Program-made: the position numbers and the translations under genes | Shown: piece after piece, positions 4,107-55,635 of the stretch | Numbering within the stretch: the first letter of the stretch is position 1 | How the letters are laid out: each line of letters starts with the position of its first letter | The notes under the pieces: model-generated | What the model saw: the letters and a program-made list of their open reading frames with translations, nothing else | Told to the model about the DNA's origin: nothing | Databases searched by the model: none | Assembly: GCA_963682055.1 (NCBI GenBank) | Contig: OY821740.1 | Span: 11,432,814-11,496,813, forward strand | Direction: 5' to 3' | DNA: 64,000 nucleotides | From: Primula veris | Lineage: Eukaryota > Streptophyta > Magnoliopsida > Ericales > Primulaceae

Positions 4107-5118
4107 TCTTGAGGGGGAATGAATAATGAAGTGAAATATTACTGGAGGGACAAAAGTACATGTATTGTGTATGTTAACTGTTATGTTGCTTATCAAAAAT
4201 ATGTATGTTAAGTTAGTGACTTATTACTATATATGCAACTTTTATAAGACACATGTGGCTAGAGATTAAGACACGTAAATATGATATTGTAAAATAATAT
4301 ATCAAATACAAAAATAGAAAAAAAGGAAGATGATCAGAAACATCAAGGTTTGATTAAAAGCCATCAAGAAGTTCTTTTTGACCATTTCCTCTTTGAAAAA
4401 TACAATTTGATAAGAAATAAATTATTTATTTTATGCAAACTTGTTAAGTGGACTAACATTATTTTTATAAAAACAGTTAAGAGTATTAAAATTAAGTAGA
4501 AGCCAAAAATAATTTAATGGTATAAACTACCCAAGTTGAATTTTCATTAGAAGGCCCAACTTTAACTTGTAATTTTACGTGTATTCTAGAAATAAAATTA
4601 GATTTTGAGGGAAAAAATGATTCTTTTCAACTAAATCAATAAATATTGAAACCTTAAGAGTGGCGGAGCTAAGATGGCAAAATGGTGTGGGGCTGAATTT
4701 CAAGAATAAGAGCTAAGATGGACACACCACAAACAAATGAAAATGAACATTTTTAGTTCCCAAGCTTTTTAGTCAATTGTATAAAAACCGATCTACAATC
4801 TACACACAATTGTGACGTCGTGGGCAATGGAGTTAATAAATTGAAGATAAATTTTATGTGTAATAATCATTTATCAATAAATTAAGCCTCGTATTTAACA
4901 TTCTTATGTTTTTTTTTTTCCTAGTTAATACTATTAGTTATTTAAACATCTTTTCGGTAAAAGTTTTTGGAGAATGATAACGGGGTTCCCATCCCAGTGG
5001 CACTATATAAAAATAATAACAAATATAGCTTAGTTCATGCATGATAACCACTAGCACCTACCGAACAAGGATCGTAAAATGCGCTGACTTTATCTAAAAT
5101 AAAATTATATTTTATATA
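4107..5118. other. Intergenic, upstream of the PP2-A-like gene
   Basis: AT-rich sequence with homopolymer runs. No gene or repeat was recognised. It should hold the promoter of the minus-strand PP2-A-like gene, but I cannot point to defined elements. Confidence 0.4.
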
Positions 5119-5331
5119 TGTTGTAGGTTATTATTGGACTATTGGGCCTTACTCATAGTGGGCTTAAGTTGGTCTTTCTAGCTTGTATAATCTTAACCTC
5201 TAGTATATTAAGAAGGTTAGGGTCCCCTTGTATTGATACATTCTGATTAATAAAGACCATTTTGTTGTCTCTCTCATACTTCTCTCTATATCTATACATA
5301 TCTCTATAACGAGCTAATATTTCACACAACA
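5119..5331 (+). repeat. 5' LTR of Copia copy 1
   Basis: 213 bp, TGTTGTAGG...CACACAACA. It differs from its 3' partner by about five substitutions and one 10-bp indel in a TCTATATA-rich stretch, indicating a fairly young insertion. It contains the CTCTCTATATCTATACATA stretch near its 3' end. Confidence 0.93.
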
Positions 5332-5353
5332 CGTTATCGGCACTTTGCTCGCG
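5332..5353 (+). other. Putative primer-binding site region of Copia copy 1
   Basis: The leader starts immediately after the LTR with CGTTATCGGCACTTTGCTCG; copy 2 has CGTTATCAGCACTTTGCTCG at the same place. The position fits a primer-binding site and the core TTATCAGCAC resembles, without matching, the TGGTATCAGAGC site used with initiator methionine tRNA. The priming tRNA is not established. Confidence 0.45.
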
Positions 5354-5566
5354 GAGAATAATATATACGCTCACGGATATTAGATTTTGGCCGGTGGTCT
5401 TCACCAAAATACTAGAATCACGGTAAACCCAGTTTATTTTAATAAACTATTAATGTTAGAAAATTGCATGCGTACTTATTTTGTTACTGCATAAATTGAA
5501 AAGGCATGTACAGTTGTGTACTATTTGTGTTTATATGTAGTTTAACAAACTATTATAATACGGTAC

Positions 5567-6725
5567 TGTTGGCCCGTGTGCGGCTAAACCTTAGAGGGGG
5601 ATAAATAAGGTTTATGGCGATTTTCGCCAAATTAAAACTTAAGTGCAACTAACACCCCAACTTACGCAATTCTAAACTTACGCGTTAATAATCGTTAATA
5701 AATTCAAACGCAAGCAAGCAAGAATAAATATTTGCGGAAAATAAAAGTTTAAGTGAACAAGATGACACCGTGATTTATAGAGGTTCGGCAAAACGCGCCT
5801 ACGTCCTCTCCTCGGTACTACCGAGTATTTCACTAAAAATTCTTTTCCCGGATATTACAATCCTAATGAGCTAATCGACCGATTAAGCTCCCCCTCACTT
5901 TATGAGTGTCCCGAAATGAAAGATCTAGAGCTTTTAAGCTTCACTTGCTTACAAAGCCTCTACCCGATCGCTCACAAAAATGAGTTTATAAAATACTCGT
6001 TACAATTTTGTTATAAAAATGTAACTACACTCACTATTCTATTTGCTTCTAAATAAGCTAATTGATGAGTTTTTGTTGTTGTTCGAGCTTGAATCGCTTT
6101 CTTCTTTATTTCCTCTTTTTCGAATATTTTCACCAAAATGGTGATAATTTGGGTTTTGATTAAGAGAGGTTTTTAGGATAATGGATTGTTGTATTGATTG
6201 GTGGTTTGGAAGAGAGATTGAGCTTGTATATGTAGACCAAAGGTCTGTTTTTCTGGGTTATGACCGTTAGAAGTGGTTGAGGCTGTTTTAAGCTATTTTC
6301 CAGAAAAAGCTGAAAAGCTGTTTTCGAATTCTGTAGAAAACGATCGGTCGTTTTCTACAGTCGATCGGTCGTTTTCCAGAAAACGATCGGTCGTTTCTGA
6401 AAAACGATCGGTCGTTTTTTCGATGCCCTCACTGGAAGAAATTGGGACAAAAACGATCGGTCGTTTTTGTCCAGTCGATCGGTCGTCTGTTCTTCTAGCA
6501 GTTTTTCGGTCTTCTTCGAAAGCCCATAACTCCTTCGTTTTAGCTTCGATTTTGGTTCCGCTTGAATCTGTGGCTTCGTTTTTCTGAGCTCTATCTTTCT
6601 GGCTTCTGAAATTTACAAATTCTCTTTTTTGGAAAAGACAAGCATTATATCATCGAAAAGTAAAATCATTAAAAACATAATCAAAGTTATAATCAAAATC
6701 AATTATTGAACCCCATGGTTCAACA
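5567..6725 (+). mobile_element. Solo LTR nested in Copia copy 1
   Basis: A 1159-bp insertion begins TGTTGG and ends TTCAACA, and is flanked by the perfect 5-bp duplication GGTAC (5562-5566 and 6726-6730). It has no internal region, so it is a solo LTR left by LTR-LTR recombination, of a different family from its host. It contains the ATTTATAGAGGTTCGGCAAA type stretch common in long plant LTRs and a hairpin minisatellite at 6331-6490. A truncated relative lies at 60733-61118. Copy 2 lacks this insertion. The orientation is inferred from resemblance only. Confidence 0.88.
6331..6490 (+). repeat. CGATCGGTCG minisatellite forming TCGG-loop hairpins
   Basis: Six copies of CGATCGGTCGT at uneven spacing within the solo LTR. 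Several sit in the centre of longer perfect inverted repeats. Arms 6331-6343 and 6348-6360 pair over 13 bp around TCGG. Arms 6445-6456 and 6461-6472 pair over 12 bp around TCGG. A third near 6377-6399 pairs with one bulged A. Confidence 0.9.
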
Positions 6726-7005
6726 GGTACAAAATAAAATAACCCTCTTGATAGTTGTATATGGATTACCACTTGATGAACATATTATCACATGAGTTCA
6801 CTGGAAAAAGAATTGTATGTATATGTTGCATGATTCATAAGACTAAACCACCAATACGTTATTTTAATAACTATTAGAAACTGTCATGTGTATATGTACT
6901 AATCCTATGCATGTATGGATGTGCCCATCTATATATATTACTGTCATATGAGGAATCCAGTAAACCGCATGCTAGAAACAAACTTGGATGATATCACCAT
7001 GTAAT

Positions 7006-7329
7006 AATCTTAAATTGATTTGATTTGATATGTTAGAATATTCATGGATTGATTGATAACCTTAAATTGATTTGATTTGATATGTTAGAATCTTCATGGA
7101 TTGATTGATAATATTAAATTGATTTGATATGATAGAATCTTCATGGATTGATTGATAACCTTAAATTGATTTGATTTGATATGTTAGAATATTTATGAAT
7201 TAATTGATAATCTTAAATTGATTTGATTTGATATATTAGAATATTCATGGATTGATTGATAATCTTAAATTGATTTGATTTGATATGTTAGAATCTTCAT
7301 GGATTGATTGATAATCTTAAATTGATTTG
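7006..7329 (+). repeat. 52-bp minisatellite, about 6.2 copies
   Basis: The unit contains AATCTTAAATTGATTTGA, GATATGTTAGAAT and CATGGATTGATTGAT. Six units plus a 17-bp partial fit the length of 324 bp, the third unit being 5 bp short. The same position in Copia copy 2 (25490-25610) has only two units plus the same partial, so array length varies between copies. Confidence 0.92.
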
Positions 7330-8091
7330 TTTATAACACCAAATCTACTGCATGATTAGATAGATTCTAAAATATATTTACTGCCTGTTTATATATGTGT
7401 GGTTAATCTAGATAGATATTCTCTATGTTGTTTAATATTATTGCCACATATAATTTGCGAAATCATATATTTTCACATTTAAGTTGGAAAAATTATGCAA
7501 CCTTCCCTAAATAGGCTCACCTATTTGGATACGATGTCTAGGAAAGATATAGGCGGAAGTCGATATCCTAATGAGGTCGGGTTTTAAGTGGCATTCGTGC
7601 CCTCCACCCTCACCGTCTTTCTTGGTCGTTTTTCAAGTAGAGCTACCGAAAGGGGTCGACTAAATAATAATTTCCCCGAGTGTGTTTATATAGTGATGTA
7701 TGTTTCGCCGAATTGGTGTCTCTGTATCGACCTGTCGTTCGATCAATGAGAACCTATTCACATTAAAAGCAAAACTATTTTTTGAACCTGTCGTTTCGAA
7801 ATAAAGTTTATGCTTGTGCAAACCATAAACATATAAACCAGTCGTTTTATATGATAAATAATCCAGAACTCCCAACACATGTTGGATGCCATCTATGATG
7901 AGAAAAATCGTAAAAACATACTTGCGAAATGACTGTTTAAACGTTGATTTTAATCCGTCACCACATGTTACTCACCCTGATGTGTGAAAATGTGATGCCC
8001 AAAATTTTTTTTGGATGCCATCTTTGATGAGTAAAACACGAGTTTGTTGTTACCATCAGGATAAATGCTAAGGCGTTGATTTTATTCCGCC

Positions 8092-8510
8092 GCCACATTT
8101 GAGACGTGATGACGTCTATGGTGAACAAATGTCTGAAATTGACATATTGGAGCAATCCTTCACCAAAATACTAGCTTGGAAATTGCATTCTATAAGCAGT
8201 ATCGTGAATTTATATTCACCATGTTCCTTTATCGCCCATCTGTTATTGGATAAGAAAATTATCCCGGTGAGTAGTTTTAATCTTATTGGGTCAATGGCGA
8301 ATTGTTTGTCTGATATTAATGCTTTTCGTGTACATTTTTTTCCACGAATTGAGAACTGATACAAGTGTTATTTGTCTCGAACTGTCGCGATCCCGATGAA
8401 TCGCCTTAGCCAAGAAAGATTTTAGACAAACGTCAAAATCGAAAACCTGTGGCTCCAAGATAGTAATTGAAAGGAACAATATGATCCGTTGTCACAAAGC
8501 AAGAGATAAT
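8092..8510 (+). pseudogene. Copia gag remnant (copy 1)
   Basis: The frame beginning near 8099 reads QMSEIDILEQSFTKI, which resembles the conserved part of plant Copia capsid proteins; in another frame CAGTATCGTGAATTT keeps the QYRE block. Frames switch between blocks, showing indels. Near 8445-8500 a CGSK...RCHKA pattern looks like a broken zinc knuckle. No intact gag can be read. The same breaks appear in copy 2 at 26373-26800. Confidence 0.65.
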
Positions 8511-10929
8511 GCTCAAGGAGCCAACTCTATGCTATAAAGACAAAGGTCAAGCACGGTTACTCCTTAAATAGTTCAAAACTATTATAAAGGTGAAAAAACC
8601 GATGCTAATGTGGTTAAAGCTAATTGAAAGGAAACTCTTGAGACCCCCGATTTTGTGGCTCAAATGAGTTCGATACCTTTCTTTATTGATTTTGATAAAA
8701 CATTGAGCCATTTTTTCGCTCATCTGGATTATGTTTTTCCATTTGGATTATGATTTTTCCATTTGGCAATACTTTTGGATTATGGTTTGCCTGTTTACGA
8801 AATTCCTCGAAATAATTTAAAGTGTTTTGAGCAAATTACTTTGACAAATGTGACCAAACTTTAAATTATGAAATTTTAGGCAATACTTGTGGGGTAGTTG
8901 ATTTTTTAAAAAATAGTGGGTAACAGTGTACCACATAATTTCACCAACTACTTGCCTAAAAGAGTACTCAGTGACAACGATTCTGGACCTGTCGTTCCAA
9001 ATCGAAATCTTTGGTAAAGCCAAATTGATTTGTCAAATATGAGGCGTTATACTCCTATAGGTCCTGTCGTACCTTGTTGAGTTATAAAATATTCGAGAAA
9101 ACCAGTGTTATCTGGTAATAGCTCATAAAAGAATTGAAATTTCTATACATAACCTCCATTCAATATGACTAAAAGCGTATTTTAGAGGAGTTGAAATGTC
9201 TTTCAAGTGGTTGCTACCACATTCTTTAAAGTATTTAAAGTTACCTTATCATTTCACCTGTCGTCGAAATGATAAATGATTTAGATGCTAAGACATGATT
9301 GTCTATACTATCATTCGCCTGTCGCCGATTGATAAGAGCATTTTGATATTGTGGCATTGACCGGATGAGATATTCCCGGGTCAAAAGAAGATGCTTGATT
9401 TATAATCGCATCGTATTTGGATTCTCTTTGAGAATATATTTCGTGATTAATCCGAAATTCATGCCACTAATGCTCACTTTGAAAGACTAATATGTGTAAA
9501 GATCATGAAATGAACTCGTAGAATTCTTGTAAAGAATTGAAGGAGTTATTGTGGACTTATCCAACCATAAGACGGACCATAAATATAAATGGTTATGGTT
9601 GATGCATCGACAATATAGTCACATTTTAATGTTGTCCACATAAATGCAGCACTTTCCAAACTTTTAGCCCTATCATTAAGTTGATGGCTCATGATCCGGA
9701 TTATCCTGAAAAGTCTAGTCGACTTGATAATTATGAAGAGTAAGAATCGAAAATTCGATTTGAATTACTTGAGTTTGGAAATTGAAATTGAACATCCTGT
9801 CGATTATGTTCAGACCCAAATGGACTCACGAAAAGTTTGATGATGCGACTGTAAATGGTTGCACGCACTTCTTGGTCTTGCGCACCAAGATTTATATTTC
9901 CGTGTGGGTTCATGCTATTTTGCTGCATTGGTCCGTCTGAGGCCATAGTCACTCAAAACACTAAATGCGTACCAGTTGGTTACTGGTTATGAGCCAGACG
10001 CCTCATATGAACGCGTGTTTGAGTGCTTAATTTTTTGATTGAGCCGCTAAAGCGTTCAAAATATGGACCTCTGAAGGGGACATAAGTCGATTACGAATCC
10101 CCTACCTATCATTTGATAGAGTAACATTGGCAAGCGATCTCTTTACCGCATGATATGAGAAAGTGACATCGCTAAGGCTATTCTCCCCGTCGTTAGGGGG
10201 AGATTTGCATGTTACCGTTGATAAGGAACGACGTGAAGTAACGTGGCATAACCCACTCAGTCTTAGCTTGATCCCCAAAACTGCACTTAGTGATAAGTAA
10301 GTGCATAGACTCCCTCAAGTCTAACTAAATGCCAGACGCATTTAATGACTTTATGAGATGTCACGAGATCATTTATACCTGCTGCAAAATGCTTGCAAGG
10401 ATAGACGTCCCTGTCGGACGCCGTGTTCCTGTCGTAACACGTTGCTTTGGCCGAACCCGCCAAACAAAGGACGCTGCCGTTGGCCGTCAGTCTGTCATCC
10501 TTCCTAAGATATGAGGAAGTTGACCGGTTCTTAATTCGTTCAGCCCCAAAGGTGGTGAACTAAAACTCTTTTGTCGCACGATATTATAAAGGAGCAGGGA
10601 GATGTATGATTTCCTCCTCATCCTAAGAATCTCGAAATATCTGTCGATCATGATATCTTAGACGATATTGAAGCGAAACGAGACTATCATTGATTACTTG
10701 TTCATATATTCGGTGACGACTGATAATATGAGCAAATTATGACAGGGAACCATGTACTGTTGCCTGAAGTCAACGTAGAATAGACTGGCCTAATGGAAAC
10801 TTGCAATCCAAGTAGACTCCTTAGCGAAAGTGTGTTCCGACCTGTAGCTCCAACACCACCAATGTTAAACGAGTTCGTTTATTTGGTTATTCGTAAGGAA
10901 AAATGATGAGAATAATGAGATTGTAGAAT

Positions 10930-11160
10930 GCTCGCCTAGTAGCGCAAGGCTTCTCTCACACCTTGGAATTGATTACGAAATGGTTGATTTTCTCGTATTG
11001 GACATTATAACAGTCCCCTACTTTACCAGTTTAGTAGTTTCCCAAAAACTGATTGTGCAGCATGTGATTGTGGTCACTGTTTTATCTCTATGAGAATTTA
11101 GACAAAGAGATATAGATGAAGGTCCCTGTGTGACTTCATATGCTTTAATCAAATAGTTCC
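10930..11160 (+). pseudogene. Copia reverse transcriptase remnant (copy 1)
   Basis: Translation from about 10932 gives ARLVAQGFSHTLGIDYE, the conserved Copia RT entry block, followed by recognisable but altered sequence (PYFTSLVVSQKL) where the family has its YLISLAV-type stretch. The catalytic region is not conserved. The stretch coincides with several inverted repeats, such as the TATCTCT/AGAGATA arms around 11083-11113. Confidence 0.75.
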
Positions 11161-12099
11161 TGACCACGGAACACGATCTCAATTAAATGAGACGTTCACT
11201 ATATGGATTAATATAATCCAAGCGGATGTGGTATACCCGCCTAAGTGAGTACTTGATTAGCTTGAGATACTTGAACAAGTATTATGCCCTTGCGTGTTTT
11301 ATTACGCGATCCATTTTTGGATTTGCCTTCGAGATGAAGGATCTTGGGAAGAAACGGTAGTGACTCGACCTGATGATCGAGTCCCGTAAAGATTGAATTT
11401 AAGTAGGTGTTATGACGTTTTAGTCATTATGACGCTAAGTCGTCAGATTCTCCCATGATCGTTCGATCACTATACATTGATATAGACCCGGTCCGTCCCT
11501 GATGAGACGACAAAGAGATATTGAACCATAATGTTCATATCTAAGTACAATAAGCACATCATTGTATTTGGTCTAATGTACTAGGACGAACATCTTGTCT
11601 GCTGTGAATGGTATAGCTCGACACAGCATCGCGCTAACACGCTGCCATCGAAATGGCACTAAAGACACATTCCCTTACCTTATGGTAATTTTGGAAGTGG
11701 GCTAGTTTATCCCATTTGCGTCATCGAGTGTACCTACCCCCTTCGGTACTCGAATTAACGCAACCCTTTTCGGTTATACCGATGCCGGTTACTTATCAGA
11801 CCCGCATAAGGGATATTCCTAACATGGTCTGTCTTTACCATTAGGAATAAGGCAATATCTTAGAGGTCTTGGAATAACTCCAAACGAATCACTCTGATTT
11901 ACTCGTGCTCTATGAGACGACTAGAGGGTGTATATGGCTTCGAGCTCGTATTAGCCATATTTGAATTACATATGCTCTGTCTCACGATCCAAATAAAACA
12001 CTTGTCGTATTTAAGGACAACTTGTTGTTATCGATCAAGAGAGACATGACTAGATTACGCTATTTAGCATTTCTTGCCGAAATAAATCTTCACATATGA

Positions 12100-12360
12100 A
12101 GTTTAAAAGCATCCAGTTGAATGCTCGTTCTATTCCACGTTAGATTTTCTTGCATCCAGTCGTGTGCAAGTAAATGAAGCATCCAGTCGAATGTTTGTAC
12201 TCTTTATTCGAATATAAAATCATTGCACCCAGTCGTGTGCAAGTGAGGGGGAGCATCCAAGTGAATGCTTATTGCACTTATTACTACTTAGTCGAAATCC
12301 TCGCACCCTGTCGTGTGCAAGTGAGGGGGAGCATCCAGTCGCATGCTCGTGTACTCTTTT
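12100..12360 (+). repeat. 75-78-bp degenerate repeats with CC(A/T)GTCG hairpins and PPT-like tracts
   Basis: Units carrying GCA(C/T)CC(A/T)GTCGTGTGCAAG start near 12152, 12225 and 12303. Two are followed by AAGTGAGGGGGAGCATCC, a polypurine-tract-like sequence that also resembles the true tract before the 3' LTR. Each unit holds two hairpins, for example TTGCAC/GTGCAA around CCAGTCGT and GAGCAT/ATGCTC around CCAGTCGC. Confidence 0.8.
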
Positions 12361-12845
12361 TGTCCTTAGACCAAAGTTTTTTTTTTCCCATTGGGTTTTC
12401 CTTGGCAAGGTTTTTAGCGAGACACGTTCCCATCATATCTCACTTTAGATTGCCGAAATTAGGGGGAGTATCCTGTTGTATAGTTCTTACCACTGTGTAC
12501 TCTTTTGTCCTTCGACTAGAGGTTTTTCCCACTGGGTTTACTCTAGCAAGGTTTTGATGAGGCGCCTGTTTTGTGGTTGATTTCCTACTACTACCACTGT
12601 TGCACTCTTTTTCCTTCGATCAGAGATTTTCCCATTGGGTTTGCTCCGGCATGGTTTTGATGAGGCACACTGTTTTGTGGTTAGTTAATTACATAGAATT
12701 TCAGCCTATATCATTCGGCTACACAGTCTCCTAGGTACCGATTTTGTCCCACACTGGGTTTTCCGTCCCTAAGGTTTTTATGTGTTTAGCACTGCGAATG
12801 AACTCGACTCAGATCGACTGCATGAAGACGAAGAATTCAAGACGT

Positions 12846-12857
12846 CCAAAGGGGAAG
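12846..12857 (+). other. Polypurine tract of Copia copy 1
   Basis: CAAAGGGGAAG lies directly before the 3' LTR start, where the plus-strand primer is expected. Copy 2 has AAAGGGGGAG at the same position (31149-31158). Confidence 0.8.
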
Positions 12858-13080
12858 TGTTGTAGGTTATTATTGGACTATTGGGCCTTACTCATAGTGG
12901 GCCTAAGTTGGGCTTTCTAGCTTGTATAATCCTAACCTCTATTATATTAAGAAGGTTAGGGTCCCCTTGTATTGATACATTCTGATTAATAAAGACCATT
13001 TTGTTGTCTCTCTCATACTTCTCTCTATATCTATACATATTTCTATATATCTCTATAACGAGCTAATATGTCACACAACA
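12858..13080 (+). repeat. 3' LTR of Copia copy 1
   Basis: 223 bp, same ends as the 5' LTR, with about five substitutions and a 10-bp longer TCTATATA-rich stretch. Followed by the target duplicate ATATA. Confidence 0.93.
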
Positions 13081-16000
13081 ATATAAAATTATTTTATAAA
13101 ATCGTTGTGGCTAAAACACTAAAATTTAAATGTTTGGATCAAAATGCATATAAAAAATCTATTCTTTTATCATATTTTTTCAAAATAAGAGGTTGCAGCT
13201 CCCGACTATCCAGTTGCTTCAGTCACAACTAGTACCTTAATTCAATTCTTTTCTCGTTTTTTTTTTAGAACACTATTTGAGAATACAAAACGTCATTCAA
13301 GTCATTTTATGGACGGAAAAAATTGTGAATCTTTTTCTATATGAACTTATAAGCCAAAAATATATCCTTTATACCAGGACTCATACATCCATCAGGGAAA
13401 GGATTACTATTTATTCATCCATTACGTAAAAGATATATAATCTTTTGAGGTTTGAATTTTATCTTTCGTCAATAGAGTTTAGACATTAGATGCAAGGTAC
13501 TTTATGGTTGCAAGTTGCACACATGTTCTATAGATATTAAGTTGTGTGAATTATATTTAATACATGTAAAAGCATTCAAAATAGGTATGTTTTTATTTAT
13601 TCTTATTCATAACTATGCAATTTTGATGCATGGTCATGACATTTATTGCAAACTTGAATGGGCGTTACCTACATTAAATATTTACCCATTGAGAATAAGA
13701 AGGCCAGCTAATGTGAGAAAATAGGACCCTATTTTTAAGAGTCATTAAATATGTCTAATAAAAGGAGCGATTACATTATTAAAAGAGAAAATTAATTCAA
13801 ACACGTGCATGTTAAAATCATATAGGATAACATAATACGAAATATAATTTTTGGACAACCAAAAATATTGTTTTGTCAAATGAAAATTTGTGAAGAAATC
13901 TACAGAATAAGTATCAGATTAGAAATATGCAAAAACGGAAGCTCCAATCTATGATTACAATAACTGTTAATAAAAAAAAAAAAGTTTGAAAGTTGTAACC
14001 AATTGTTGTGCACTTCATAATAGTTGATATGTTGTGTTGTTTGTCAAACACATTGTAATCACTCAAATAGTATTTCCATCATAAATCACATCACCAAACA
14101 ACAAGCTCAAATTTTGTTTTGTTGATAAAAGACGTATTAGTATTAGTAAAAAAAAAAAAATTGAAAAAACCCTTCTATGCTAAAATTAATCGATAATACC
14201 CCAAATTTCTGTGAAAATGTGAAGCTACTAACGATTTATTAAAAAGTGATTTTCAATATTTTTGGGGAAAATATTTTCTTAGTGAAAAGGAGACTTCACT
14301 TTCTATAAGAATTATGCGGACGAATATGGTGTTTTCATCCGAAAAGTCCGTTTCATAAAATATACAGAAGAAATCGAAAGACAGGAGTTTTTTTGCCATA
14401 ATGCAGACTAGGCTTGAAAATTGTAGATCCGCACAACTCAACAAGGTGTCGGTGAAATGTGGATGCAAAGCACATACGCGCATTAGATTACCAATCATTT
14501 ATAGTTCATCATATATAATCATGAGTTGTTGTCCCCTTTCGCAAACCCAATTTTTATAGTCATATCAAACAATAACACAAGAGGATATAGAAAACGTGTC
14601 CTCCAACTTAAAGAAGGAGGCCTTTCAATTAGGCAAATAATGTGGGTTATGAAGCTTGATCAGAAACAAATCCACATGATTATCTTTCCTTTCTGTAAAG
14701 TGATATATGCGACTATGCGTAACTTGTTTTCACAGACTAGATAAAAGCACGAAGGCTGTGATGCGATGAATCTTTTACAATATTGCAAAATTGCAAAAGA
14801 AGATAATAAGTTAATAATAACTGTTTCCATTATACTTTTACAATGGATGAATATCGACAGTTAGAAGATATATTTAGGGTTGCGCCACTTGGTATTGATT
14901 AGTATCAAAAGTATTGGGATCTCGTCCTTTTCGATACAACTTAATTATAAGATTAATGAGTACCAAATGCCTTTTGAAATTTTTGTGTGAATAATCATGG
15001 ACATACCATTTATTAGGATGTACCTTGCTTCGAAATCAAAAACATGTACTTTCCGCTGGTTAATGAAGGTAACTTGAAATCGGGTTTTAAAGGTCCCATA
15101 ATGGTTTTCTTAATTTCATTTTGGTATGTAACTCATCAGTTTGGCTTTGAATTGCAGACTTTTTTTTTGACTGTGAGGAAAAATCCCCTAAAAGTAAAAC
15201 CATCATAACAACCAAGACGGCAAGACCCATGGATCAAAGGAAACATTTTTTGCAGAATTAGCATCTACAAAGCATAGTTTTTCCATATGGCATATTACTT
15301 CTAAGTTTAGTAGTTGGTTTACAGCCATTCTTCGAAACAAATATTAAGACGGGTTTTTCTTTTGTGCAGTCAATCAATTAAACGGCACAAAGTCCTGCTT
15401 TCAAAAATAAATATTCAATTGTTATTTTTTAAAAAAATTTGATTAATAATTAAATTTAGGATAGTATCCACTAGGGTTTTATATTTTTATTTGAGTTTTT
15501 ATTTTGTTGTAAAATTTGTTTTTAATTTATTAAATCCTAATTTGTCTAATATATAATCAAAATTGAAAAATTAAATTAGTTATTGAAAAGTTATTTTTTA
15601 ATCTAATGGTTGTAAATGTGACCGGACATTGTATAAAATTACTGTACAAAATGGGAACTCTATTAAGACTGGTATGGAGATTTTTACACTTTATATAAAA
15701 ATTGGATGCACGAGAAGATTTTGGAAATAGTGGGTGAAGTCGGTTGCAATATATAGGTTGGAAAGGAACAAACATATCGTTGGGTTATACAAGATTAAAC
15801 ATTTTTGGGCGCCCGCATTTCTCCTCGGATATTTTTTTTAGTCATGAGAACAACGGGAAAATCGGAAAGCATAAACACATTTATTAAACTATTTATTGGC
15901 TCTCATACTGATGTTCAATGATTCGATAAACAGGTTAGTAAGCATGCTTTTACTAATTTTCAGTTTTATGCATAATTATTTGTTCTAAAATCAGTAGCAA

Positions 16001-24195: not shown

Positions 24196-24429
24196 TGTTG
24201 TAGGATATTATTGGCCATCTTGGGTCTTACCCTATTGAGCCTATCTTGGGCTTTCCTAGCATATGTAACCCTACCCTCTATTATATAAAGAGGGTCAGGT
24301 GTCTATTGATGTATCTCTCTGTACAATCATATTAATGAATAAACACTTCGTCTGTTGTTTCTCATATCTCTCTCTATATCTATACATATCTCTATATATA
24401 TCTATAACGAGCTAATATGTCGCACAACA
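24196..24429 (+). repeat. 5' LTR of Copia copy 2
   Basis: 234 bp, TGTTGTAGG...GCACAACA, followed by CGTTATCAGCACTTTGCTCG as the putative primer site. Confidence 0.94.
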
Positions 24430-25489
24430 CGTTATCAGCACTTTGCTCGCAGAAATAAAATATACGCTCGCAAATATTGGAGATTTTGGGTAAACGCACG
24501 TATATTGTGTATATATAAACCTTGAGTTTTATCCGGTTTTTATTGGGTTCGTTTCGACCTTCTACAACATACCAGGAGTACGGTATATTTTTTTATATAC
24601 TTACACCTATCAAACACATGTTTAAAAGAAAAAAAAAAGAATGTAAAATTGCATGTGTACCTAATTTGCTACTGCATAAAAAAAAAAACCAAATAACATG
24701 AGTTATATATATAAAATATGGATATGGTGATGCTATGGTAGTATACTGGTTTTTTTTAGATTATCATCTAATAATGTACATATGATTACAAGTTTTTCTT
24801 TAACGAAAAAGAAAGAAAAAGAAATTCATGGTGTGAATTGTGATAGTATACAAACATGTCATGTGATAATTTATATATCTCATATTGTATGACCACTGTG
24901 TAAGTTAAATTCTATTTTTTTTAGAACAACCTTGTAGTTCACACTATTATTGTTAAACTAGATCAGATTACTAACATGTTTTCAATCTATGATTGCATGA
25001 TGATTTACTATGCCGTATGAACAACATCAGAAATTACATGTTCTAGCATAAAATTCATAACATAGCTTATGTATAATGTATGTATGCACGTTAGTAATTA
25101 TATCTTCTAGTATATTGATGTTGAACCCAGTGTAATACATGTTTATACTACCCTGCATATTGAATTCGGGTGAATTAGAGTACCCAAATAGGCAGTAAAT
25201 ATTGGCGTGTCTGCTTGATTGTAGTGTATCTGGTATGTTACCATGTATAAAACTTACACATAAAAGCAATAGATTTGTATAATATTAATTTATATCTTGC
25301 TAGTGTAAAATTGGTAATTAAAAATATATTGTTTGCTTGCATGTTAAAACTAGCATGTATAGAATTATTATTAATATGGCGATAAACATAGATAATTGAT
25401 TGATATCTTGTTAGCATAATCATATCTTTTTGATATTATCATATATATAAATATCACGCCAGTAAATTATTGGATTAGATCTAATTGAT

Positions 25490-25610
25490 AATCTTAAATT
25501 GATTTGATTTGATATGTTAGAATTTTTATGAATTGATTGATAATGTTAAATTGATTTGATTTGATATGTTAGAATCTTTATGCATTGATTGATAATCTTA
25601 AATTGATTTG
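25490..25610 (+). repeat. 52-bp minisatellite, 2.3 copies
   Basis: Two full units and a 17-bp partial (121 bp) of the same minisatellite that has six units in copy 1. Confidence 0.92.
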
Positions 25611-25999
25611 TTTAAAACAGCAAATCTACTGCATGATTAGATAGATCTTAAAATATATTTACTGTCTGTTTATATATATGTGGTTAATCTAGATAGATAT
25701 TGTCTATATTGTTAATATTATTGCCATATATAAAAAGCGAAAATCGTATATATTCACATTTAAGTTGGAAAAATTATGAATCTTCCCCAAATAGGCTCAC
25801 CTATTTGGATACGATGTCTAGGAAAGATAAAGGCGGAAGTCGTTCTCCTAATGAGGTCGGTTTTTAAGAGGCATTCGTGCCCACCCCCCTCACCGTCTTT
25901 CCTGGTCATGTTCAAATAGAGCTACCGAAAGGGGTTGACTAAATAATAATTTCCCCGAGTGTGTTTATATAGTGATGTATGTTTCGCTGAATTGGTGTT

Positions 26000-28900
26000 T
26001 CAGTATCGACCCGTCGTTCGATCAATGAGAACCGATTCACATGAGAAGCAAAACTAATGTTTTCGAACCTGTCGTTTCGAAATAAACTTTGTGCTTGTGC
26101 AAACCATAAACATATAAACCAGTCGTTTTATATGATAAATAATTCAGAACTCCCAACACATGTTGGATGCCATCTATGATGAGAAAAAATCGTAAAACAT
26201 ACTTGCGAAATGACTGTTTAAACGTTGATTTTAATCCGTCACCACATGTTACTCATCCTGATGCGTGAAAATGTGATGCCCAAATTTTTTTTTGGATGCC
26301 ATCTTTGATGAGTAAAACACGAGTTTGTTGTTACCATCAGGATAAATGCTAAGGCGTTGATTTTATTCCGCCGCCACATTTGAGACGTGATGACGTCTAT
26401 GGTGAACAAATGTCTGAAATTGACATATTGGAGCAATCCTTCACCAAAATACTAGCTTGGAAATTGTATTCCATAAGCAGTATCGTGAATTTATATTCAC
26501 CATGTTCCTTTATCACCCATCTGTTATTGGATAAGAAAATTACTCCGGTGAGTAGTTTTAATCCTATTGGGTCAATGGCGAATTTTTTGTCTGATATTAA
26601 TGCTCTTCGTGTATATTTTTTTCCACGAATCGAGAACCGAGACAAGTGTTATTTGTCTCGAACTGTCACGATCCCGATGAATCGCCTAGCCAAGCGAGAT
26701 TTTAGACAATCGTCAAAATCGAAAACATGTGGCTCCAAGATAGTAATTGAAAGGAACAATATGGCCCGTTGTCACAAAGCAAGAGATAATGCTCAATGAG
26801 GCAACTCTATGCTATAAATACAAAGGTCATGCACGGTTACTCCTTAAATAGTTCAAAACTATTACAAAGGTGCAAAAACCGATGCTAATGTGGTTAAAGC
26901 TAATTGAAAGAAAACTCTTGAGACCCCCGGTATTGTGGCTCAAATGAGTTTGGGACCTTTCTTTATTGATTTTGATAAATCATTGAGCCATTTTTTCGCT
27001 CATCTGGATTATGTTTTTCCATTTGGATTATGATTTTTCTATTTGGACATACTTTTGGATTATGGTTTGCCTGTTTACGAAATTTCTCGAAATAATTTAA
27101 AGTGTTTTGAGCAAATTACTTTGACAAATGTGACAAAACTTTAAATTATGAAATTTTAGGCAATACTTATGAGATAGTTGATTTTTCTGGAAATAGTGGG
27201 TAACACGATACCACATAATTTCACCAACTACTTGCCTAAAAGAGTACTCAGTGACAATGATTTTGGACCTGTCGTTCCAAAATCGAAATCTTTGGTAAAA
27301 CCAAATTGATTTGTCAAATATGAGTTCTTATACTCATGTAGGTCCTGCCGTACCTTGTTGAGTTATAAAATATTCGAGAAAATCGGTGTTATCTGGTAAT
27401 AGCTCATGAAAGAATTTGAAATTTCTTTACATATCCTCTATTCAATACGACCAAAAGCGTATTTTAGAGGAGTTGAAATGTCTTTCAAGTGGTTGCTACC
27501 ATATTCTTTAAAGCATTTAAAGTTAACTTATCATTTCGTCTGTTGTCGAATGATAAATGATTTAGATGCTAAGACATGATTGTCTATACTATCATACGCC
27601 CGTCGTCGATTGATAAGAGCATTTTGATATTGTGGCATTGACCGGATGAGATATTCTCGTGTCAAAAGACGATGGTTGATTTATAATCGCATCGCATTTG
27701 GATTCTTTTTGAGGATATATTTCGTGATTAATCCGAAATGAATGCCACTAATGCTCACTTTGAAAGACTAGTATGTGTAAAGATCACGAAATGAACTCGT
27801 AGAATTCTTGTAAAGAATTGAAGGAGTTATTGTGGACTTATCCAACCATAAGACGGACCATAAATATAAATGGTTATGATTGATGCATCGACAATATGGT
27901 CACATTTTACTGTTGTCCACATAAATGCAGCACTTCCCAAACTCTTAGCCTTATCATTAAGTTGAGGGCTCATGATCCGGATTATCCTGAAAAGTCTAGT
28001 CAACTTGATAATACCGAAGAGTAAGAATCGAAATTTCGATTTGAATTACTTGAGTTTGGAAATTGAACATCCTGTCGATTATGTTCAGACCCAAATGGAC
28101 TCACAGAAAGTTTGATGATGCGACTGAAAATGGTTGCACGCACTTCTTGGTCTTGCGCACTAAGATTTATATTTCCGTGTGGGGTCATGCTATTTTGCTT
28201 CATTGGTCCGTCTGAGGCCTATAGTCACTCAAAACACTAAATACGTACCAGTTGGTTACTGGTTATGAGCCAGACGCCTCATATGAACGCGTGTTTGAGT
28301 GCTTAATATTTTGATTGAGCCGCTATAATGTTCAAAATATGGACCTCTGAAGGGGACATAAGTCGATTATGAATCCCCTGCCTATCATTTGATAGAGTAA
28401 CCTTAGCAAGCGATCTCTTTACCGCATGATATGCGAAAAAGTGACATCGCTAAGACTGTTCTCCCCGTCGTTAGGGGGAGATTTGCACGTTACCGTTGAT
28501 AAGGAATGACGTGAAGTAACGTGGCATAACCCACTCAGTATTAGCTTGATCCCTAAAACTGCACTTAGTGATAAGTAAGTGCATAGACTCCCTCAAGTCT
28601 AACTAAATGCCATACGCATTTAATGACTTTATGAGATGTCACGAGATCATTTATACCTGCTGCAAAATGCTTGCAAGGATAGACGTCCCTGTCAGACGCC
28701 GTGTTCCTGTCGTAACACGTTGCTTTGGCCAAACCCGCCAAGCAAAGGACGCTGTCGTCGGCCGTCAGTCTGTCATCCTTCCTAAGATATGAGAAAGTTG
28801 ACCGGTTCCAAATTCATTCAGCCCCAGAGGTGGTGAACTGAAACTCGTTTGTCGCACGAGATTATAAAGGATCAAGGAGATGTGTGATTTCCTCCTCATC

Positions 28901-30660
28901 CTAAGAATCTCGAAATATCTGTCGATCATGATATCTTAGACGATATAGAAGCAAAACGAGACTGTCATTGATTACTTGTTCATATATTCGGTGACGACCG
29001 ATAATATGAGCAAATTATGACAGGGAACGATGTACCGTTGCCTGAAATCAACGTATAATAGACTGGACTAATGGAAACTTGCAATCCAAGTAGACTCCTT
29101 AGCGAAAGTGTGTTCGGACCTGTAGCTCCAACACAACCAATATTAAACGAGTTCGTTTATTTGGTTATTCGTAAGGAAAATTGATGAGAATAATGAGATT
29201 ATAGAATGCTCGTCTAGTAGCGCAAGGCTTCTCTCTTACCTTGGAATTGATTACGAGATGGTTGATTTCCTCGTAATGGACAATATAACAGTCCCCTACT
29301 TTATCAGTTTAGTAGTTTCCGAAAAACTGATTATGCAGCATGCGATTGTGGTCATGGTTTTATCTCTATGGGGATTTCGACAAAGAGATATAGATGAAGG
29401 TCCCTGTGTGACTTCATGTGCTTGAATCAAGTAGTTCCTGACCACGAAACACGATCTCAATTGACTGAGACGTTCACTATATGGATTAATATAATCCGAG
29501 CGGATGTGGTATACCCGCCTAAGTGAGTACTTGATTAGCTTGGGATACTTGAACAAGTATTATGCCCTTGCGTGTTTTATTACGCGATCCATTTTTGGAT
29601 TTGCCTTCGAGATGAAAGATCTTGGGAAGACACGGTAGTGACTCGGCCTGATGATCGAGTCCCGTAAAGATTGAATCTAAGTCCATGATTCAGACTACAC
29701 CCAGAAGGTGTTATGACGTTTTAGTCATTATGACGCTAAGTCGTCAGATTCTCCCATGATCGTTCGATCACTAGACATTGATATAGACACGGTCCATCCC
29801 TGATGAGACGACAAATAGATATTGAACCATGATGTTCATATCTAAGTACAATAAGCGCATCATTGTACTTGGTCTAATGTACTATGATGAACATCTTGTC
29901 TGCTGTGAATGGTATAGCTCGACACAGCATCGCGCTAACACGCTGCCATCGAAATGTCACTAAAGACACATTCCCTTACCCTATGGTAATTTTGGAAGTG
30001 GGCTAGTTTATCCCATTTGCGTCATCGAGTGTACCTACCCCCTTCGGTACTCGAATTAACGCAACCCTTTTTCGGTTATACCGATGCCGGTTACTTATCA
30101 GACCCGCATAAGGGATATTTCTAACATGGTCTGTCTTTACCATTAGGAATAAGGCAATATCTTGGAGATCTTGAAATGACTACAAATGAATCACTCCGAT
30201 CTACCCATGCTCTATGAGACAACTAGAGAGTGTATATGGCTTCGAGCTCGTATTAGTCATATTTGAATTACGTATGCTCTGTCTCACGATCTAGATAAAA
30301 CACTTGTCTTATTTGAGGACAACTTGTTGTTATCGATCAAGAGAGACATGACTAGATTATGCTATTTAGCATTTCTTGCCGAAATAAATCTTCACAAATG
30401 AAGTTTAAGAGCATTCTGTCGAATGCTCGTTTTATTCCACGTTATATTTTCTTGCATACAGTCGTGTGCAAGTAAAAGAGGCATCCAGTCGAATGCTCGT
30501 ACTCTTTTTTGGAATATAAAATCTTTGCACCCAGTCGTGTGCAAGTGAGGGGGAGCATCCAAGTGAATGCTTATTACACTAATTACTACTTAGTCGAAAT
30601 TTTCGCACCCTGTCGTGTGCAAGTGAGGGGGAGCATCCAGTCGCATGCTCGTGTACTCTT
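26000..30660 (+). repeat. Dense array of short inverted repeats in Copia copy 2
   Basis: The same hairpins as in copy 1, some more perfect. Arms 27259-27267/27276-27284 pair over 9 bp around CCTGTCGT. Arms 26061-26067/26076-26082 pair over 7 bp around CCTGTCGT. Arms 26110-26117/26126-26133 pair over 8 bp around CCAGTCGT. Arms 29250-29257/29270-29277 pair over 8 bp around a 12-nt loop. CACGTTAC/GTAACGTG arms pair over 8 bp near 28487-28524. Confidence 0.8.
26373..26800 (+). pseudogene. Copia gag remnant (copy 2)
   Basis: The frame from about 26380 reads 139 codons and includes MSEIDILEQSFT and a zinc-knuckle-like KTCGSK...ARCHKA, longer than in copy 1 but still out of frame with the rest of gag. 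It is not a functional protein by inspection. Confidence 0.6.
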
Positions 30661-31158
30661 TTTATCCTTAGACCAAGGTTTTTTTTTTCACTGTGTTTTC
30701 CTTGGCAAGGTTTTTAGCGAGACACGTTCCCATTATATCTCACTTAAGATTGCCGAAATTAGGGAGAGTATCCTGTTGTATACTTCTTACCACCGTGTAC
30801 TCTTTTGTCCTTCGACTAGAGGTTTTTCCCACTGGGTTTACTCTAGCAAGGTTTTGATGAGACACCTGTTTTGTGGTTGATCCCCTACTACTACCACTGT
30901 TGCACTTTTTTTCCTTCGATCAGGGATTTTTCCATTGGGTTTGCTCTGCTAAGATTTTGATGAGACACACTGTTTTGTGTTTAGTTAATTATATAGAATT
31001 TCGACCTATATCATTCGGCTACACAGTTTCTCCTAGGTACCGATTTTGTTCCACACTGGGTTTTCCGTTCCTAAGGTTTTTATGTGTTTAGCACTGCGAA
31101 TGAACTCGACTCACATCGACAGCATGAATACGAAGAAATCAAGCGTCCAAAGGGGGAG

Positions 31159-31392
31159 TGTTGTAGGATATTATTGGCCATCTTGGGTCTTACCCTATTG
31201 GGCCTATATTGGGCTTTTCTAGCATATGTAACCCTACCCTCTATTATATAAAGAGGGTCAGGTGTCTATTGATGTATCTCTCTGTACAATCATATTAATG
31301 AATAAACACTTCGTCTGTTGTTTCTCATATCTCTCTCTATATCTATACATATCTCTATATATATCTATAACGAGATAATATGTCACACAACA
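31159..31392 (+). repeat. 3' LTR of Copia copy 2
   Basis: 234 bp, same length as its 5' partner, followed by the target duplicate GTTTG. Confidence 0.94.
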
Positions 31393-53075: not shown

Positions 53076-54327
53076 AAGTTTTGGTGAACTTTTGTTACCA
53101 TAGAATGGAAGAAACTGAGATTAATTTGACAATAAGAGCCAAAGCATGAACTGGTACAGTTCTAATCTATTCATTGGATTCGAATCTAATTTGGCCTGAT
53201 GCCCGGATCGGACATTTCTTCTGGTTAGGACTAATCGATTTTTACCTGAATTGGATAAGACTGGTGTTAAAATTCCACCGGATTGAATAAAAATTTCCAC
53301 TGCAACCGGTCTGAACAGTATACACCCGATATATTACCATCTTATAAGTGCATGTATGAACCGCTGTCATGTTGTGTCAACCGAGAAGAGGTTATGGTCA
53401 GTTGTTTTAATAACTATTTTGCATTTGTACACTCTAATTGAAGAGATTTTTTATTTATTTTTTACATTAGTACATTGATGAAATTTACGCTAGTTGAATT
53501 TATAGTACCCTGAAGGATTCACGGTATACGTTTAAGAAAGGAAAATAGTTTTGCTATATTTGATCGGTTACCCGTTCAATACAGAAACAGAAGAGTTGTT
53601 ACTCGTATACTTGTTTTTCTGTGAGTACACTTCAGATAAGCGCATATTTAAGGTCTTAAAAGTTAAAACTAAAAGAAACTTAAAATGACTGGAGGCTTGA
53701 AAATTGTTCAGGAAGAACCAGAAGCAGTATATACGCTGGGATTTTATGCTAATTACCTGATTTAGTATGGTTTCTAGGTTGATCTCGCCAAGTGACTGCG
53801 ATTAGATATTGATAAGCATGGAAATATGTAATTTGAGTATATTTGATGTATCAAGAAAAAAATCCGCAACTTCCATTAGTACACGAAACAAGTTTATGAA
53901 TGAAAATATGCCATTTGTAATCCGAACTACGTAAAATATAAGACTGTTTTGTCTTTTCATAGTCCTATAAAAGATTATAGGGATATCTCTCAATGCTGCT
54001 AGCATCAATGAATCTGCTTTTAAGGAAGATATCTCTCAAACAAAGAAATCAATTAATTGTTTCCTTACTCCATTATATCTAGTTTTACTATTTAAAAAAA
54101 TTCCACTTCCTTTTATATTTAATTTCTGGCAGATTATGATGAATGAAATTACTACTCAAGCATTAATGAATTTTATTACTCCTCGTTAACAATTGCCTAT
54201 GTAATACTAGTAATATTCATAGAATCAAATTAAATGCTTTTTGCCTTCTCTACATTCAAACACCATCTTCCTGCCTATATATAATCCCCAACTGATTAAA
54301 CACTTATTTTCATCACCCAAACAAGCC
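53076..54327 (+). repeat. Duplicated upstream region of the aspartic protease gene, copy A
   Basis: Direct duplicate of 56740-58026, with a third partial copy at 44360-44960. It contains the presumed promoter of the intact protease gene; ACTATTTAAAAAAATTCC near 54088 is a possible TATA-like context but is not defined. Confidence 0.82.
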
Positions 54328-55635
54328 ATGTCAACCATATTTTCCGTAGCCCTCCTTTTCCTTACCGTTTTCTCTGTTATGCCTCCCAATAAAGCTGATG
54401 ATTATGGATTTACCATCGACTTAATCCATAGAGACTCACCCGCATCTCCATTGCACAACCCTTCCCTAACTTCTTTCGAACACCTAAGAAATGGCTTTAA
54501 ACGTTCTCATGATCGCGCAAATCATTTTAAATCGATTGCTAAAAAATCACATTCAGTTTATAGCAAGGTAATCCCCTCAAGTGGGGCCTATATGATGAAA
54601 CTAACTCTCGGTACTCCAAAATTCAATACCTTTGCTATCGCTGACACAGGTAGCGATCTTATTTGGACTCAGTGTGAACCTTGTCCTAACTGTTACAAGC
54701 AAAAAGCACCTTTTTTCAATCCAAAAAAATCCTCGACATACAAAGAATTTCATTGTAATTCACACACATGCCATAGTCTAACAAGTCAAAATTGCAGTGT
54801 AACCGGTACATGTCAATACTCCATTTCGTATGGTGATGGATCCTATAGTAAGGGAACTCTTGCATCTGAAAAATTCACTTTCAATTCCATAAAACATGAT
54901 CCTATTTATTTTCCCAAAATCATCTTTGGTTGTGGTTCACAAAGCGGTGGTACATTCAGTGATGATGGATCTGGTATAGTCGGCCTTGGGGGTGGGTCTG
55001 AGTCTCTTATTTCCCAGTTAAATTCTACTATAAACGGAAAATTCTCCTATTGCTTGGTACCTTTGTTTTCTGACAAGAAAAAATCTAGCAAAATCCATTT
55101 CGGAAATCGTGGAATTGTTTCAGGTCCCAAGGTCGTGTCCACTCCCATAATTACTAAAACATCGAAAACATTTTATCGACTTACGTTAGAAGCTCTCTCA
55201 GTTGGAAAAGATAGGGTAAAGGTTGTCAGCTCCCCATCTGATAATGGAAATATTATTATAGACTCGGGGACAACGTTAACTTATCTTCCGCCTAATGCCT
55301 ATACCCAATTTGAGTCGTTAGTAAAGAAAGCTATGGGAAATAAAACAGTCGAGGATCCTATAGAGGCTTTAAGTCTGTGTTATAGAGTTAGTGATAAGCC
55401 TACGTTCCCCACTATTACGGCACATTTTACTGGTGCCGACATTAAATTAAAGCGAATAAATACTTTCGTACAAACGGGTGATGATGTAACTTGCCTTGCT
55501 TTTACACATTCAGGAATAACAGATTTCGGTATTTTCGGAAATATCGCTCAGATAAATTACAAGGTCGGTTATGATCTCATTAAGAAAACTGTGTCGTTCC
55601 AGCCTACTGTATGTGGATCATTGCAACATTCATAA
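54328..55635 (+). CDS. CDR1-like aspartic protease, single exon, 435 aa
   Basis: Secreted nepenthesin-type (A1B) aspartic protease, the group that includes Arabidopsis CDR1, an apoplastic defence protease. I chose the start MSTIFSVALLFLTVF, which gives a signal peptide; upstream in-frame codons lack an ATG. The prosegment contains FTIDLIHRDSPASP. The first catalytic site is ADTGSD (Asp106) followed by LIWTQCEPCPNCYKQ, a Cys-rich nepenthesin insertion. The flap region is ISYGDGSYSKG. The second catalytic site is IIDSGTTLTYLP (Asp312). The C-terminus has FGIFGNIAQINYKVGYD and a final Cys. All key residues are present and there is no intron, as in CDR1. A tandem paralogue lies 2.4 kb downstream as a pseudogene. 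Confidence 0.93.
   Translation: MSTIFSVALLFLTVFSVMPPNKADDYGFTIDLIHRDSPASPLHNPSLTSFEHLRNGFKRSHDRANHFKSIAKKSHSVYSKVIPSSGAYMMKLTLGTPKFNTFAIADTGSDLIWTQCEPCPNCYKQKAPFFNPKKSSTYKEFHCNSHTCHSLTSQNCSVTGTCQYSISYGDGSYSKGTLASEKFTFNSIKHDPIYFPKIIFGCGSQSGGTFSDDGSGIVGLGGGSESLISQLNSTINGKFSYCLVPLFSDKKKSSKIHFGNRGIVSGPKVVSTPIITKTSKTFYRLTLEALSVGKDRVKVVSSPSDNGNIIIDSGTTLTYLPPNAYTQFESLVKKAMGNKTVEDPIEALSLCYRVSDKPTFPTITAHFTGADIKLKRINTFVQTGDDVTCLAFTHSGITDFGIFGNIAQINYKVGYDLIKKTVSFQPTVCGSLQHS

Follow-up and report, generated by a model that had tools for sequence, protein, structure and literature searches.

The window analyzed here, a 64,000-nucleotide stretch of the Primula veris genome (GenBank assembly GCA_963682055.1, contig OY821740.1, forward-strand positions 11,432,814 to 11,496,813), contains two long terminal repeat (LTR) elements whose interiors are crowded with short hairpins, many of them presenting the same eight-base loop in one orientation (Table 1). 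An LTR pair with a target-site duplication is present in both, in keeping with descent from Ty1/copia LTR elements; the duplication of element 1 is the 5-bp ATATA at 5114-5118 and 13081-13085, and the LTRs measure 213 to 234 bp in both elements. The interiors of elements 1 and 2 are 92 to 98% identical in 250-base steps over 7200-12700, dropping towards the LTR, but the LTRs of element 1 are merely 74 to 79% identical to those of element 2 in BLAST pieces, and the 5' interiors do not align. Because the LTRs are so much less alike than most of the interiors, these data suggest an exchange of interiors between two subfamilies. Since both elements have target duplications, 97% identical LTR pairs, and one broken interior in common, the lineage probably moved while it was non-coding. 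A tandem repeat of ~50 bp (7000-7330 and 25482-25652), with more copies in element 1, lies at the left edge, where homology between the elements starts.

Table 1. Elements, pol remnants, and individual hairpins of element 1. Positions are those of the window; stem arms are in capitals and loops in lower case. L001 is the copia relative described in the text.
Feature	Position	Strand	Remarks
Element 1	5119-13080	+	LTR pair and target duplication; length 7962
5' LTR, element 1	5119-5331	+	TGTTG...CAACA ends; LTR pair ~97% identical
Hairpin-rich interior, element 1	7720-12360	+	9340-12121 pol-derived; 7720-9339 in place of gag
Degenerate Ty1/copia pol	9340-12121	+	Colinear with L001 1585-4587, 57-58% nucleotide identity
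Reverse transcriptase/RNase H remnant	10866-11850	+	One frame, 17 in-frame stops
3' LTR, element 1	12858-13080	+	Purine-rich tract AAAGGGGAAG just before
Element 2	24196-31392	+	LTRs 24196-24429 and 31159-31392 (~97% identical); target duplication GTTTG; length 7197; hairpin interior 26000-30660
Octaloop hairpin ATCGA-cctgtcgt-TCGAT	7726-7743	+	
Octaloop hairpin, loop CCTGTCGT at 7787	7780-7801	+	3 Watson-Crick pairs, 7 with GU
Octaloop hairpin CATATAAA-ccagtcgt-TTTATATG	7830-7853	+	
Octaloop hairpin, loop CCTGATGT	7972-7987	+	
Octaloop hairpin, loop CCCGGTGA	8255-8278	+	Stem depends on GU: 0 Watson-Crick pairs, 8 with GU
Octaloop hairpin GCGAT-cccgatga-ATCGC	8387-8404	+	
Octaloop hairpin TGGA-cctgtcgt-TCCA	8984-8999	+	
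Octaloop hairpin AGGT-cctgtcgt-ACCT	9059-9074	+	
10-bp hairpin, loop ACCTGTCGTC	9246-9275	+	An example of the sequence-only reading
Octaloop hairpin, loop CCTGTCGC	9315-9328	+	
Hairpin TGAACAT-cctgtcgatt-ATGTTCA	9789-9812	+	
Octaloop hairpin TATGAG-ccagacgc-CTCATA	9988-10007	+	
Hairpin TAAATGC-cagac-GCATTTA	10326-10344	+	Octaloop without eighth base
Hairpin CGTCC-ctgtc-GGACG	10406-10420	+	Octaloop without eighth base
Octaloop hairpin CGTGTT-cctgtcgt-AACACG	10422-10441	+	
Octaloop hairpin GACTCGA-cctgatga-TCGAGTC	11362-11383	+	
Octaloop hairpin, loop CCTGATGA	11494-11509	+	
Motif hairpin cluster, partly tandem	12105-12350	+	Loops at 12113, 12156, 12183, 12229, 12307, 12335

The larger part of the hairpin-rich interior is a decayed copia pol gene. 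Both copies align with L001, one of 12 fetched copia relatives, which has a 1223-codon open copia pol frame and lies on a contig filed under Solirubrobacter; L001 and L002 are plant-like copia elements on contigs filed under bacterial genomes (Solirubrobacter and Trichormus), probably as contamination. When the reverse transcriptase (RT) frame of element 1 was translated with X at its stops, the RVT_2 match was weak (E 0.011, under the curated cut-off), and comparison with plant Ty1/copia proteins gave a best E of 3.7e-43, with 421 proteins at E<=0.1. Relative to these relatives, ~28 codons around the catalytic YVDD segment have been lost from the remnant. With this loss, the 17 stops in the RT frame, and a longest overlapping stop-free stretch of 127 codons, element 1 is not autonomous. 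Upstream of 9340 homology is thin, and 7720-9339 is assigned as the former gag by position only, apart from one 16-codon protease-region match near 9041-9088. A Pfam scan of ten separate open reading frame (ORF) pieces returned only weak, unrelated matches, a protein search with a 74-aa piece found nothing useful, and neither did two protein-guided scans and one DNA pattern run against viral contigs. The 127-aa frame at 12174-12554 has one 94-aa relative at 79% identity, probably a third copy.

A hairpin was scored wherever a perfect stem of 6 bp or more enclosed a loop of 2 to 16 nt; only non-overlapping hairpins were counted, and 20 dinucleotide shuffles served as the control. By this rule, copy 1 (7720-12360) holds 50 stems versus 15.6 +/- 3.8 in shuffled sequence and copy 2 (26000-30660) holds 50 versus 15.9 +/- 3.9, an excess of 3.1- to 3.2-fold that bears out the shuffle comparison proposed in the sequence-only reading, whose three example hairpins are also in the sequence exactly as described. 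Its further statement that the interior is built almost entirely of hairpins is too strong, as stems of at least 5 bp plus their loops cover 42% of bases and the arms alone 25%. The pol-derived part (9340-12121) is the strongest of copy 1, with 29 stems versus 8.4 and none of 100 shuffles reaching 29. The excess is weaker in 7720-9339 (13 versus 6.6; 1 of 100 shuffles as high), and 12122-12360 has 4 stems versus 0.5 expected. At the right edge the excess ends at ~12360, with 0 versus 1.1 in 12360-12857 and 1 versus 0.9 in 30660-31157, and the three LTRs counted, of four, were all at chance level. Six of seven other regions were near chance (21-29 versus 19-26), the exception being 5119-7000 (19 versus 7.2). 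Within the latter, the 5' unique part of element 1 (5332-6320) has 9 stems versus 4.4 (2 of 100 shuffles as high), or 18 versus 11.6 when stems of at least 5 bp are counted; the corresponding part of element 2 (24490-25480) is at chance level (5 versus 6.5). Hence, the excess is not strictly limited to 7720-12360, yet it is strongest there. Loop lengths 5, 6, and 8 are over-represented in copy 1, length 4 less clearly. Four near-tandem perfect hairpins with stems of up to 13 bp also occur at 6331-6472 in the 5' unique part of element 1, three of which have a TCGG loop (ACGATCGGTCGT core).

Neither a known RNA family nor tandem duplication accounts for the hairpins. Rfam returned no matches at gathering threshold over the whole window, ruling out the former. 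Self-comparison of element 1 placed tandem copies within 7720-12360 only at ~12150-12347, so duplication is ruled out as the source, as the sequence-only reading had held; the tandem copies outside this interval are at 7004-7335, 6335-6486, and 12488-12682. Over the stretch of L001 matching 9340-12121 (~3 kb), the same count gave 8 versus 10.3. Because this intact relative lacks the excess in its matching stretch, the hairpins appear to be derived in the lineage of the window relative to L001, though over its full contig L001 does show a mild rise (27 versus 22.1, 13 of 60 shuffles as high; or 27 versus 20.3, 0 of 30). Across the 12 copia relatives the ratio over shuffles ranged from 0.71 to 2.04, none reaching 3. 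Four of them (L004, L006, L009, and L012) have whole-contig counts of 1.69 to ~2 times the shuffles, which counts against the uniqueness of a plain excess.

The main feature of the array, overlooked in the sequence-only reading, is a directional octaloop, CCNGNYGN, mostly CCTGTCGT or CCAGTCGT, carried on stems of unrelated sequence. That reading had described the arms as different each time, which is right for the arms, but many loops are common: CC[TA]GTCG occurs 15 times on the plus strand of 7200-12360 and never on the minus strand. In a word count blind to structure, CCTGTCG was found 10 times in 7720-12360 versus 0.12 expected from base composition; outside the elements it was absent from the plus strand and occurred twice on the minus strand. 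Within 3 nt of CC[TA]GTCG, a flanking stem of at least 3 bp was present at 15 of 15 sites and one of at least 4 bp at 12 of 15, compared with 27% and 10.5% of all positions, and in element 2 a stem of at least 4 bp flanked 9 of 9. With an abutting stem of at least 4 bp, CCNGNYGN occurs 14 times on the plus strand of element 1 (7200-12360; shuffles 0.04) and 12 times on that of element 2 (25480-30660; shuffles 0.01), is absent from the minus strand of both, and is found on neither strand of the 48.8 kb outside the elements. This relaxed pattern was derived from these same data, and the CCTGTCG word count is the cleaner test. Eight-base loops on stems of at least 5 bp matched CCNGNYGN in 9 of 21 cases in 7200-12860 versus 0 of 92 outside the elements (both strands). 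No CCNGNYGN hairpin with a stem of at least 3 bp is present in L001, and at this stem length the 12 relatives together have three, one on the match strand (L007) and two in L005 on the opposite strand. Given that the hairpins at 10326 and 10406 have the octaloop without its eighth base, the structure may be a CNGNY pentaloop that is closed by a C-G pair and can be followed by a bulge.

Pairing around the motif is far above that in arm-swap controls. All 21 CCNGNYGN sites in 7200-12100 were included in an arm-swap permutation, with five flanking positions per side and the 3' arms exchanged among sites; 72 of 105 cells were Watson-Crick, versus 32 +/- 4.8 after permutation and a maximum of 52 in 20,000. 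At 17 hand-chosen sites, a choice that leans towards pairing and from which the 21-site test is free, 83% of cells pair versus 44.5% when shuffled, with a covariation score of 0.995 versus 0.238. A covariance model built from the 17 sites and run over the window and the 12 loci gave 43 matches at E<=10, of which 39 lie in the two elements, all on the plus strand; 17 of these 39 are the model's own input. The remaining matches were 23750 on the minus strand (E 2.9), 53187 (E 6.7), and two coding spots in L001, 3200-3223 and 4001-4024 (E 1.1 and 1.9; loops CCTGTAGT and CCTGAAGT), which could be coincidental or represent seeds from which the motif grew. In local RNA folding, the closing pair had a probability above 0.5 at 17 of the 28 motif sites of element 1 and at 12 of the 23 of element 2, compared with 5.5% and 8.5% of random sites (200 each).

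Taken together, these data make selection acting on a folded single strand the very probable cause. As the loop is conserved with positions 3, 5, and 8 variable, the octaloop is a candidate protein-recognition site, which we consider somewhat favored; by reasoning only, the same variable positions argue against a partner RNA that base-pairs with the loop. Our best guess, held at slightly less than even confidence, is Gag from an autonomous partner as the protein and packaging as the advantage gained. Coding would have been lost while the lineage stayed mobile on proteins supplied in trans, and selection would have favored the folding of its single-stranded nucleic acid, probably the genomic RNA, into many short hairpins. 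In this scheme, a protein acting in trans, the likeliest candidate being Gag from an autonomous copia relative, would bind the octaloop hairpins scattered along the element RNA and thereby raise its packaging or reverse transcription. In its fullest form, offered tentatively, this proposal has selection rewriting a pol gene into an array of at least 20 putative protein-binding CCNGNYG hairpins so that a dead element came to parasitize the packaging of its autonomous relatives.

Several observations weigh against this proposal. At the 17 sites, two of the five measures computed were unremarkable: pairs with two-sided changes (7 versus 6.5; 296 of 500 shuffles as high) and pair types (23 versus 18.6; 22 of 500). 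Between copy 1 and copy 2, the 36 and 33 changed pairs in stems of at least 5 bp included no two-sided Watson-Crick replacement, with G.U and A.C outcomes about equal (13 and 15; 11 and 10), and 6 of 24 motif sites of element 1 lack CCNGNYG in element 2, approximately the neutral expectation for five fixed positions at ~5.5% divergence. Thus, the recent divergence of the copies shows no constraint. With LTRs ~2.5% apart, we estimate that around half of this divergence postdates insertion, which weakens the point but keeps it. Moreover, the milder excess at 5332-6320 sits outside the pol part, in sequence from which the octaloop motif is absent, and removing the motif hairpins still leaves copy 1 with 34 and copy 2 with 36 stems of at least 6 bp, versus 15.2 expected for each. 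Nor does the sense strand fold better than its complement: mean z in local RNA folding was -1.16 and -1.46 for the sense strands of copies 1 and 2 and -1.51 and -1.69 for the antisense strands. Larger regions outside the elements averaged -0.23 to 0.01, and single kilobases elsewhere reached -1.48. Motif hairpins were slightly better on the antisense strand, with closing-pair probability above 0.5 at 20 of 28 sites versus 17 of 28 in element 1 and at 12 of 23 on both strands in element 2. Finally, A.C exceeds G.T at stem ends (32 versus 16 in R1 and 29 versus 21 in R2; 42 versus 34 and 132 versus 117 in two control regions).

These strand comparisons bear on the possibility that it is the antisense strand that was selected, as an antisense transcript or minus-strand cDNA that folds, with the loop NCRNCNGG, and functions. 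Loop direction alone does not name the working strand, and a plus-strand A.C is a G.U on the minus strand, so that the slightly lower antisense z, the antisense motif hairpins, and the stem-end mismatches all lean this way. However, the strand differences are all small, and around the motif GU rescues more sites than AC (18 versus 15 in element 1, 15 versus 14 in element 2); within stems, cases of G.T and A.C were too few to compare. In LTR elements the genomic, sense RNA is the form known to be packaged, and we regard antisense selection as unlikely. Structure might also have been selected for generic reasons, such as stability, escape from silencing or nuclease, or RNA compaction, with the octaloop a stable loop and not a protein site. 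Loops of other kinds do prevail among the excess hairpins (34 of the 46 stems of at least 6 bp in copy 1), with no consensus visible by inspection. A near-fixed CC-G-YG in one orientation nonetheless exceeds what stability needs, and many other loop sequences coexist with it; we doubt this explanation to a similar degree.

Mechanisms that invoke no selection fare worse. The sequence-only reading had suggested that template switching during reverse transcription corrected quasi-palindromes into palindromes, and that departures from the family sequence tend to fall in the arms. Copying of one arm onto its partner should leave the departures from L001 concentrated in a single arm, but four permutation tests found no arm asymmetry (P 0.63, 0.78, 0.43, and 0.98). 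Stem bases in fact match L001 at 62-64%, versus 57-58% under circular shifts (P 0.003-0.03), the opposite of what had been claimed for the arms; these tests use two related, non-independent copies. The strand symmetry of folding would fit template switching, and L001 already pairs 90 of 183 cells of the copy 1 stems of at least 6 bp, roughly as overall similarity predicts. Yet the process leaves the shared directional loop unexplained, and neither 12360-12857 nor the unique 5' stretch of element 2 has an excess; we regard template switching as very improbable. Slightly less probable still is the simple survival of hairpins that the coding ancestor already possessed. A few sites do resemble ancestral sequence, CCCGTCGTTAGGGGGA being common to L001, and the two weak model matches in L001 and the mild enrichment of its whole contig point the same way. 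Against this, L001 has no excess over the pol stretch that matches, and 11 of 15 RT stems hold bases that cannot belong to a sequence encoding P0003, the nearest protein, with which the two RT motif loops tested also conflict. Selection on structure, the other cause offered in the sequence-only reading, is favored by a directional loop on varying complementary stems, strongest where pol coding was lost, and disfavored by the lack of compensatory change between the copies; that interpretation as a whole is partly supported.

Neighboring sequence is plant-like. Six ORFs were scanned, of which two matched TAXi-type aspartyl proteases, one a fasciclin domain, and three nothing. The TAXi-type genes (54241-55635 and 58294-59028) are apparently a local duplication.

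To our knowledge, it is poorly understood how non-autonomous retroelements outcompete their helpers for packaging, and a countable hairpin with a defined loop makes this competition testable. If the proposal is true, a protein-coding sequence has been remade into a functional structured nucleic acid while a coding relative is still alignable to it. Among the matches listed from the open-licence literature, there was no comparable hairpin array in a retrotransposon. The hepatitis B core packaging signals are described as many stem-loops on one RNA with RGAG in the loop (PMC7612645). The window elements likewise have many stem-loops in one orientation with a common loop motif and variable stems, but the loop differs and the array, read from sequence alone, lies in a retrotransposon. 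Satellite tobacco necrosis virus is a further case of dispersed packaging signals. Its RNA is reported to make sequence-specific contacts with the coat protein (PMC3593212). Closer in kind, Ty1 is also an LTR retrotransposon whose RNA has stem-loops; those implicated in packaging or dimerization are described as one compact 5' region with kissing loops (PMC5454406), unlike the window sites, which are dispersed over ~5 kb. Plant Ty1/copia elements (P0002-P0121 and L001) share the homologous RT, and L001 is colinear over pol; unlike the window elements, L001 keeps an open pol frame and lacks the octaloop hairpins.

Large retrotransposon derivatives (LARDs) are the nearest known kind. The original barley family of LARDs has very long LTRs. 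In the literature, a LARD is defined as an LTR element of more than 4 kb with no coding capacity, assumed to rely on proteins in trans (PMC6696364), and LARDs are said to specify well-conserved RNA structures (PMC7215508). Like LARDs such as barley Sukkula, both window elements are large, and element 1 has a large non-coding interior between its LTRs. On conserved RNA structure the signs are mixed: the hairpin excess and the covarying octaloop hairpins speak for it, the absence of covariation between the copies against it. Unlike the very long LTRs of the barley family, those of the window are 0.2 kb, and the interior is a visibly remodeled copia pol, structured as a series of small hairpins with a single loop motif. 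Our best guess is that these are LARD-like non-autonomous elements with dispersed, putatively protein-binding and possibly packaging hairpins.

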